From Paludibacteraceae bacterium (GTDB lineage: Bacteria; Bacteroidota; Bacteroidia; Bacteroidales; Paludibacteraceae), in NCBI GenBank assembly GCA_905234025.1, contig CAJOFT010000005.1, positions 23,021 to 62,297 of the forward strand: 39,277 nucleotides of DNA, written 5' to 3'. This document shows positions 27,348 to 34,658 of this stretch, piece after piece (the stretch's first letter is position 1; every line of letters begins with the position of its first letter). A program made the position numbers and the translations under genes. The notes under the pieces were generated by a model, which saw nothing but the letters and a program-made list of their open reading frames with translations, did no database searches and had not been told where the DNA came from.

Positions 27348-28393
27348 CGTTTCTCAGGGTCTATGGCCAGCTTCACTACATTTGCTTGGTGGTTGAGTGC
27401 AGTTGGCGTGGTTGTGAATTTATTGTTTTCTGCGCCGATCAGAGGCATATACAGCACGCTGTCCGGAGCTGACCAGTATATACGGTTATTGACGATGTCT
27501 GCGCACAGGGTCAGCACCTTCCCCGAATAGATCTGTTCCTTGAAGGTCCCGTCTATATTGGCAACGTACAATCCGTCTGCCTGACGGAAATATATCTTCC
27601 GCGCAGCGATACCGAATCCTTGCATTTCTGCGACCACTGTCTGCAACTCTTTCAGCGTGAACGTCTTGCCGTTATACACCTGCATTGAATCCTGTGCAGC
27701 GTCCGCTAATGCTTTCCCGCTCTTGTCCTCAATTGCTGTTTCCGTACGGCTGCCGAATATACGCTGCCGCAGATAGACCGAATCGCCGGTCATCATCACC
27801 ACCGACGTTGTCTGCACATTGTTTATCTTGAACACGCGCAGCGTGTCACGTGTGGCACCGTTGATGGTAACTGTCAGCTGCACACCGGTGCCATTCGTTG
27901 CTGCTTGCTCGAAATACACCTTGAACGTACTTTCCGTATTCGTCTCCGACAACTGTGTGTACGGCACGTTCGACGGCACAGTCCACTCGTACTCCACCGT
28001 ATAATTATAAGGATTATACACCAACGCCGTGAACGTCACGTCCTCGAATATGTCTATACCAGCCGTGTCTGCGCCTTCCACAGAGCACGTGAACGTCGGC
28101 ACCGTGTCAAGCACCGTAATCGACTTTGTCTTTGTCAGTCTTGCTTTGCCGTCAACTTTCAGTGTTACCGTGTATGTCCCCGGCAACTTGTAGATTTTCG
28201 ACGGGTTCTTTACTTCGGACGTACCTCCGTCGCCGAAGTTCCATTCCCATTCCTCGCCGTCGGTCGCAAGGTTGGTGAACTGCACTTTCTCGCCTGCCCG
28301 CGGTTGGGTCGGCGAGTAACCGAAGTCAACGTTGTTCTTGCTGCATGACAGCATCACGCAGCCAAGTGCTAATATGAGCCATTTGTTCTTCAT
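27344..28393 (-). CDS. PKD-domain lipoprotein with DUF5050-like C-terminal part
   Basis: Lipobox LGCVMLSCSKN; EWNFGDGGTSEVKNPSKIYKLPGTYTVTLKV is a PKD repeat. Confidence 0.8.
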   Translation of the reverse strand: MKNKWLILALGCVMLSCSKNNVDFGYSPTQPRAGEKVQFTNLATDGEEWEWNFGDGGTSEVKNPSKIYKLPGTYTVTLKVDGKARLTKTKSITVLDTVPTFTCSVEGADTAGIDIFEDVTFTALVYNPYNYTVEYEWTVPSNVPYTQLSETNTESTFKVYFEQAATNGTGVQLTVTINGATRDTLRVFKINNVQTTSVVMMTGDSVYLRQRIFGSRTETAIEDKSGKALADAAQDSMQVYNGKTFTLKELQTVVAEMQGFGIAARKIYFRQADGLYVANIDGTFKEQIYSGKVLTLCADIVNNRIYWSAPDSVLYMPLIGAENNKFTTTPTALNHQANVVKLAIDPEKR

Positions 28394-29291
28394 ACGTCAT
28401 GTTGGCGTCTAACCAGTGTATTGTTTTGTCTGCGCGGAACCACGTCATTTGTCGTTTGGCGTAGTGCCGCGAATTTTGTTTGATCAGTCTTATTGCTTCT
28501 TCGCGGGTCGTCTTGCCGTCAAAATAATCGAATAGTTCGCGGTACCCTACGGTTTGCAGGCTGTTCAGTTCCCGCAACGGATAAACCGTACGTGCTTCCT
28601 CTTCTAATCCTGCTTCCATCATGGCATCTACACGCCGGTTGATACGTTCGTACAGTTCTTCTCTCGGACGTTCCAGACCTACTTTCACTATCCCGAACGA
28701 ACGTTTGGTTTGTGCTTCACGCCGGAAGTGTGAATAGGGTTCGCCTGCACTTAATGTCACTTCCAGACAATGCATTAACCTTTGCGGATTCTGACGGTCA
28801 ACGGTTTCCCAGTATGCTTTGTCTAACCGTTCCACTTCGTTTTGCAGCCATTCCAACCCCTTCTCCGCATAATCCTGTCTTACCTTTTCCCGCACGTCTG
28901 CCCGCACTGCCGGTATATCGTCAAACCCCTTGCACACGGCATCTATATACAGCATGCTTCCGCCTGTCAGTATCGCAAACACCTCTTTGGGTACGCGGGT
29001 CTTTACGTCTCGGTCACTGACCGCGCCTGCCAGTTTCTCCAACACCTCTAACGCGTCCCGCTCGTACATTCCCGCGTTGTAGTCTTCCCGCACGGACTTT
29101 GTCCCGACGAAGTAATGCTTCACCCGTTCCAATTCCGTGGCAGTCGGTGCGGCTGTTCCGATCGGTATTTCACGGTATATCTGTCGCGAGTCGGCGCTAA
29201 CAATCGGGCACCCGTATGCTTCTGCCACCCGCAATGTCAGTTCCGTCTTCCCGACTCCCGTCGGTCCTGTTATCACTAACAGCGTCCCCAT
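28326..29291 (-). CDS. miaA: tRNA dimethylallyltransferase MiaA carrying an in-frame palindromic insertion
   Basis: VITGPTGVGKTELTLRVAE, VSADSRQIYREIPIGTAAPT, LTGGSMLYIDAVCKGFDDIP; extra AVSDRDVKTRVPKE segment before VFAILTGGS. Confidence 0.94.
   Translation of the reverse strand: MGTLLVITGPTGVGKTELTLRVAEAYGCPIVSADSRQIYREIPIGTAAPTATELERVKHYFVGTKSVREDYNAGMYERDALEVLEKLAGAVSDRDVKTRVPKEVFAILTGGSMLYIDAVCKGFDDIPAVRADVREKVRQDYAEKGLEWLQNEVERLDKAYWETVDRQNPQRLMHCLEVTLSAGEPYSHFRREAQTKRSFGIVKVGLERPREELYERINRRVDAMMEAGLEEEARTVYPLRELNSLQTVGYRELFDYFDGKTTREEAIRLIKQNSRHYAKRQMTWFRADKTIHWLDANMTYEEQMAHISTWLRDAVMQQEQR
28983..29026. repeat. Palindromic repeat element, short form, inside miaA
   Basis: CTCTTTGGGTACGCGGGT+CTTTACGTCTCGGTCACTGACCGCGC, identical to the two halves at 30552-30569 and 30583-30608. 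Confidence 0.85.
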
Positions 29292-30551: not shown

Positions 30552-30608
30552 CTCTTTGGGTACGCGGGTGTCCCGCCCGCGGCTTTACGTCTCGGTCACT
30601 GACCGCGC
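30552..30608. repeat. Palindromic repeat element, long form, intergenic copy
   Basis: Same 44 nt as in miaA, plus an internal GTCCCGCCCGCGG that makes CGCGGG-TGTCCCG-CCCGCG; second palindrome CGGTCA-C-TGACCG. Confidence 0.83.
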
Positions 30609-30638
30609 TCGCATTTTTGCGGGCGGATGTGTTTGCCC

Positions 30639-30771
30639 ACACCATACACCGTACACCGTACACCATACACCGTACACCATACACCATACACCGTACACCA
30701 TACACCATACACCATACACCGTACACCATACACCATACACCATACACCATACACCGTACACCATACACCGT
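30639..30771. repeat. 19-copy perfect-length 7-bp tandem repeat ACACC(A/G)T
   Basis: 19 consecutive 7-mers counted directly; only position 6 of the unit varies. Confidence 0.95.
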
Positions 30772-30782
30772 ACACTTAAATT

Positions 30783-34444: not shown

Positions 34445-34658
34445 TCAAACCAAGCGATTTATCGCTCAAACAATGTCAAACCAAGCGATTTATCGCTCAA
34501 ACAATGTCAAACCAAGCGATTTATCGCTCAAACAATGTCAAACCAAGCGGTTTATCGCTCAAACAATGTCAAACCAAGCGGTTTACCGCTCAAACAATGT
34601 CAAACCAAGCGGTTTACCGCTCAAATGTCAAACCAAGCGGTTTATCGCTCAAACAATT
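34445..34658. repeat. Seven-copy ~31-bp hairpin tandem repeat
   Basis: TCAAACCAAGCGRTTTAYCGCTCAAACAATG; copies at 34445, 34476, 34507, 34538, 34569, 34600 (28 bp) and 34628. Confidence 0.95.

Follow-up and report, generated by a model that had tools for sequence, protein, structure and literature searches.

A palindromic repeat read in frame within miaA of a Paludibacteraceae bacterium: probably one copy of a dispersed element family in a single genus of Bacteroidales

Introduction

The gene for tRNA dimethylallyltransferase (miaA, minus strand, 28329-29291) lies in the window, namely the whole stretch of 39,277 nucleotides analysed here, and encodes a protein of 321 residues with an in-frame insert. 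The DNA of this insert recurs between genes about 1.5 kb away, and the question is how one short palindromic sequence came to be both a spacer and a set of codons in a tRNA-modification enzyme. The original prediction was that a mobile or duplicating palindromic element had been fixed in the gene in the manner of the Rickettsia palindromic elements (the RPE families, reportedly described by Ogata et al. in 2000) but in Bacteroidota. As set out below, the miaA insert belongs, with high probability, to a REP/RPE-like family of dispersed palindromic elements, which is confined to one genus of Bacteroidales as far as we have searched. Beyond that first reading, the family is genus-wide, its copies inside genes strongly favour a single frame and strand, and a transposase of the REP type is a candidate for the mover.

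Results

The copy of the element in miaA (28983-29026, minus strand) encodes AVSDRDVKTRVPKE and was claimed to be identical to two intergenic blocks of 18 and 26 nt. Both the sequence and the coordinates were confirmed: positions 28983-29000 are identical to 30552-30569 and positions 29001-29026 to 30583-30608, with 13 additional nucleotides separating the two blocks in the intergenic copy compared with that in miaA. Within the miaA copy is the core motif CGTCTCGGTCACTGACCG (29006-29023, plus strand), which includes the inverted repeat CGGTCACTGACCG (29011-29023) with a stem of 5 bp and a loop of 3 nt, forming the hairpin CGGTC-ACT-GACCG. This palindrome is expected by chance about 0.06 times per window and was observed twice; a count on the opposite strand with one mismatch finds each copy once again. 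The intergenic copy is a composite (30552-30625, plus strand), in which a complete extra hairpin (30558-30582) precedes the core (30588-30605) and a third hairpin follows (30606-30625). This extra hairpin is a palindrome, GGGTACGCGGGTGTCCCGCCCGCGG (module A), which also occurs alone on another contig of the same genome (G000:C2:37431). Because other copies, too, have the core after the left arm GGGTACGCGGGT, the 13-nt difference need not represent a deletion in the miaA copy, as far as can be judged from the sequences. When folded as DNA, the intergenic copy gave three hairpins (z = -3.97), and the miaA copy alone folded no better than shuffled sequence.

The vicinity contains other repeats as well. 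An array of 7-nt ACACCATACACCGT-type units (30639-30782 of the window) comes soon after the intergenic copy, a similar array being present after the copies on contig C26, and a 31-nt tandem repeat, TCAAACCAAGCGATTTATCGCTCAAACAATG, with a small palindrome inside and without spacers, is located at 34445-34656.

MiaA itself is intact, scoring 234 bits against the cut-off of 149 for the NCBIfam equivalog TIGR00174, and has homologues in the PDB (2qgn, 3d3q and 2zm5); an AlphaFold2 model made from the single sequence had a mean pLDDT of only 37 and was discarded. MiaA was detected in 138 of 151 genomes of the genus. The segment from PIGTA to GGSMLY has 73 residues in our protein, compared with 61 in 36 of the 48 congeneric rows (our own included) and 66 in the closest MiaA found (78%, genome G075), and the AVxDRD sequence is absent from all 47 other congeneric proteins that were read across the loop. 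The comparison of orthologues at this site thus supports the claim that the palindromic element forms extra codons in frame. We also noticed that MiaA of another congener (G133, L325) reaches 73 residues in the same loop by means of a different in-frame tandem repeat, KSQKPIANSQKPIA; the loop is therefore variable, and its site appears to tolerate insertions. The closest relative by RecO (86%, genome G172) was left out of the MiaA search, but its single core match at one mismatch is located in aroB, and hence its miaA either has no core or is missing from this genome, which is 76% complete.

If the two copies in the window were the only ones, the notion of a duplicating element would fail. In the same genome (79% complete), however, the core CGTCTCGGTCACNGACCG was found in 11 copies at no more than one mismatch together with a diverged copy on contig C62 with two mismatches, that is, about 12 copies. 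Across the genus, an uncultured gut group of Bacteroidales whose members here are deposited as Paludibacteraceae, the core was found in 32 of 178 genomes, with as many as 85 copies in a roe deer reticulum metagenome-assembled genome (RGIG4829, hereafter G009), while a reversed control pattern gave 2 matches over the whole set. The core was absent from about 180 genomes of 32 other genera in the family (Fisher p about 5e-11). A collection-wide scan for exact matches returned mainly RGIG4829, in contig coordinates matching those of G009; there were besides a few further Bacteroidales and isolated matches elsewhere, mostly in GC-rich genomes, which are consistent with chance. No real match was obtained in Rfam, and none to the element in the plasmids and viral contigs searched. 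All the copy numbers come from pattern searches only, by which diverged copies are missed. The number and dispersal of the copies, both here and in the congeners, together with orthologues lacking the insert, bear out the idea of a duplicating palindromic element.

The element is 18 nt long as the core and about 32-57 nt long with its arms, which are frequently supplied by a second GC-rich palindrome in which the core is nested. Copies of the type in our genome have the form GGGTACGCGGGT-CTTTA-CGTCTCGGTCACWGACCG-CGCCCGC; in G009, the core sits in the loop of GGGACGCGGGC...GCCCGCG, a core-free version of which is GGGACGCGGGCGGCTCGCCCGCG; elsewhere in the genus, the arm is CCGCATGGCTTTC. From these sequences, the element consists of a constant core within lineage-specific arms.

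As to what moves the copies, their spread by transposition is an inference, and the probable agent would be a single-strand transposase of the RAYT type (Y1, HUH) acting in trans, for which we would put the chance a little below even. One Y1 transposase (PF01797) with the RAYT-like motif MPNHVHVLIEV was found in G009. Inverted pairs of module A form a bracket around its gene (242/323 and 1073/1158 of locus L228), core copies are present around it (375, 1927, 1985 and 2042), and the 6 copies of module A within 1.9 kb exceed the local density (p about 3e-7). Such palindromes abound in this genome, so that the bracket hints at the RAYT as the mover without proving it. A relative of this RAYT (59%) in genome G107 lies between palindromes of another kind, SASVPLA/RERDAHAP, which are also read in frame. 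The two brackets speak against the alternative that the family is mobile as described but has a mover other than a RAYT, be it a route through RNA, a different transposase or slippage during the replication of hairpins. This alternative nonetheless remains nearly an even prospect: no Y1 transposase gene was found in our own (incomplete) genome nor in G066, G067 and G097, all of which have the core, a Y1 gene of the RAYT type was not found in most of the core carriers examined, and the CGTC-tagged REPs were reported without a dedicated transposase (PMC3733652). Y1 genes are present in G055, in which the core is absent. Neither a target-site duplication nor an excision product could be shown.

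Two further observations concern transposase genes. On contig C38 of G107 (L262), the RAYT relative just mentioned sits in frame inside a methylase-like open frame of 1290 residues, which has several SASVPLA...RERDAHAP palindromic inserts consisting of inverted pairs of GGAGCGCGAGCGTCCCGCTCGCG-like units. Also, five core carriers (G044, G045, G085, G093 and G113) have a further family of Y1-like proteins (MPRTARIKSTTGTYHVLLRAQKKRGIF..., PGYVHLLV), which is encoded next to tilS-like genes, at the least in G045 and G113. It was rejected as the mover on the grounds that its HxH motif is lost, reading GYVH or KYVH (L207, L209, L267, L272, L274 and L275), and that no core copies were seen in the surrounding loci; the family is probably a domesticated transposase.

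Filled and empty alleles are available in metK, where 30 congeners (L231-L260) have the same insert patchily present or absent at one position. The empty allele reads GAC GAG CAG AAC CGC and the filled one GAC GCGGTCNGTGACCGAGACGGAAAGCCATGCGGACAG CGC, with a net gain of 27 nt; a few target bases are replaced at the junctions, and no target-site duplication was seen at this site, as would be expected of a MITE along with the terminal inverted repeats of its parent transposon. Between sister species, the upstream flanks of filled and empty alleles are 98-99% identical (the 3' flanks were excluded, their identities being distorted by indels), and the insert alternates among sisters, so that the gene tree requires 7 or more changes, 6 of which are forced by supported branches. 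Given that the junction is identical, the alignment favours a single origin of the metK insertion followed by short-tract transfer, while repeated insertion at this one site is not excluded. A bolder proposal, to which we give a rather low chance, is that RAYT transposases would move protein-coding palindromes into genes with a strand preference and that these would then spread between species as tiny alleles; under this proposal, the switching in metK (at least 6 or 7 times at one nucleotide position, with shared tracts down to about 55 nt) looks like homing or site-specific re-insertion.

The inserts in metK of G139 and G102 have rare variants in common on different backgrounds, and conversion of short tracts may hence occur. 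Together with the identity of the two copies in the window over 18 and 26 nt, this could suggest that the miaA copy arose not by transposition but by local duplication or recombination, having been converted from the intergenic copy nearby. We consider such an origin improbable, because copies occur across the genus and, in this genome, on many separate contigs, and because conversion depends on homologous flanks, which are lacking between miaA and the intergenic site.

Internal copies were found in at least 21 different genes across the genus. In 16 of these, the gene is antisense to the core and reads AV[S/C/R/G]DRD or a close variant: namely, miaA, aroB, metK, fmt, batA, mnmE, prfC and the genes for a TonB plug protein, class I fumarase, an M24 peptidase, an iron-containing alcohol dehydrogenase (Fe-ADH), a nitroreductase, a lipoprotein-like protein, a BT4734-like protein, a metallo-beta-lactamase-fold protein and a DUF5686 protein. 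The reading is RSVTET or a variant in nadC, lpxB and an MFS transporter gene, SRSQTA in dxr and RLGHRPR in recO. The preference for one frame (16 of 21 genes, p about 1e-6) and for one strand (19 of 21, p about 1e-4) was evaluated by binomial tests, which assume four equally open frames and are thus approximate. Genes and frames were tallied by hand without the copies in G009, where true and spurious open frames could not be distinguished. That the AVxDRD reading prevails might point to a conserved protein motif (AVSDRDGK), selected and copied as a functional peptide module and not as selfish DNA, but this can be very nearly set aside, because the same DNA is also intergenic, tandem (C26) and read in other frames (RSVTET, SRSQTA and RLGH), its synonymous sites are conserved in unrelated enzymes, and there are MiaA, MetK and MnmE orthologues without the segment.

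Full-length enzymes with an internal copy include those of metK, fumarase, fmt, prfC, mnmE, nadC, lpxB, dxr and Fe-ADH, among others. Insertion in frame relative to orthologues was shown for miaA, recO, metK and mnmE; the comparison with homologues covered only these four genes, aroB and fmt, and the remaining in-gene sites rest on intact domain matches. MnmE aligned with PDB 3gee has a gap at the AVCDRDVKGDRDLK segment, and Fmt diverges too greatly from the PDB chains around the segment for a gap to be placed. In RecO, one and the same linker holds a long segment both in our protein and in that of the near relative G172; the segment consists of module A plus the core in the former and of a different repeat in the latter. 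AroB was at first counted as an insertion but was withdrawn, as its alignment gives no net gain in length from the element-like 27 nt, which may represent a replacement. Separately, AroB of our genome (L293, G000:C117:761-1663) is lengthened by a second in-frame repeat, KSQESRVKSQESRAKSREA, which apparently derives from GAGAGTCAAGAGTC-type tandem DNA.

Discussion

A dispersed palindromic element is, therefore, our preferred account of the miaA insert. Its point of entry would be the variable loop of MiaA that precedes the strand running to GGSMLY, where it lengthened the protein by about 12 residues and kept the frame. The retention of copies inside genes is attributed, by inference, to selection for those that preserve the frame and fall in surface loops able to tolerate them. 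By default, we regard the insert as a neutral or nearly neutral passenger, and no benefit to MiaA needs to be assumed. The family places in-frame palindromes in more than 20 genes, usually essential ones (metK, fmt, dxr and lpxB) included, in a genus phylogenetically distant from Rickettsia. Because this genus offers filled and empty alleles in close relatives as well as a candidate transposase, the mover, the frame preference and the effect on the proteins can be tested directly.

Among known systems, the RPEs are the closest in behaviour, being dispersed palindromes that are read in frame in many unrelated housekeeping genes with insert-free orthologues. The RPE-like behaviour proposed for Bacteroidota is substantiated by repeated in-frame insertion of identical DNA into unrelated genes, while no shared ancestry with any RPE has been shown. 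RPEs are about 100-150 bp long (PMC3767692; ~150 bp in PMC10969869) in contrast to the 18-nt core, or about 32-57 nt with arms, of the present element, which moreover belongs to a different phylum and, among the genomes searched, is confined to one Bacteroidales genus and not to Rickettsia or Rickettsiales. The CGTC-tagged REPs (Di Nocera et al. 2013, PMC3733652), which include RPE-4 and RPE-6 of R. conorii, were reported from phyla including Bacteroidetes, with some copies in genes. They resemble our element in having CGTC at one end of a short palindrome, CGTCTCGGTCACNGACCG, for which there are TGTC variants as published. Their stems of 8-9 bp starting with AT, loops of 4-5 nt and mostly CCA tail (PMC3733652) are, however, unlike the 5-bp stem (CGGTC/GACCG), 3-nt loop (ACN) and missing CCA tail here, and they were reported without association with a transposase, whereas our palindromes bracket a RAYT gene in one genome. 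This bracketing of a Y1 RAYT-like gene by inverted pairs, in G009 alone, is as in the GTAG REPs and their RAYTs (REPtrons), but the present element has no GTAG end, and such a gene was not found in most of the carriers examined, our own genome included.

Descriptions of RPEs present them as repeats that rewrite proteins in frame with unusual frequency, and a 2024 review called an RPE-like process in other prokaryotes only "conceivable" (PMC10969869). In the open-access literature, we found no description of the present element, nor of palindromes read in frame in this group. While RPEs and REPs inside genes, and thus in-gene palindromic repeats as such, are already established (PMC3767692, PMC3733652, PMC10969869), what we describe here is a new family of elements with an unusual prevalence of in-frame copies.
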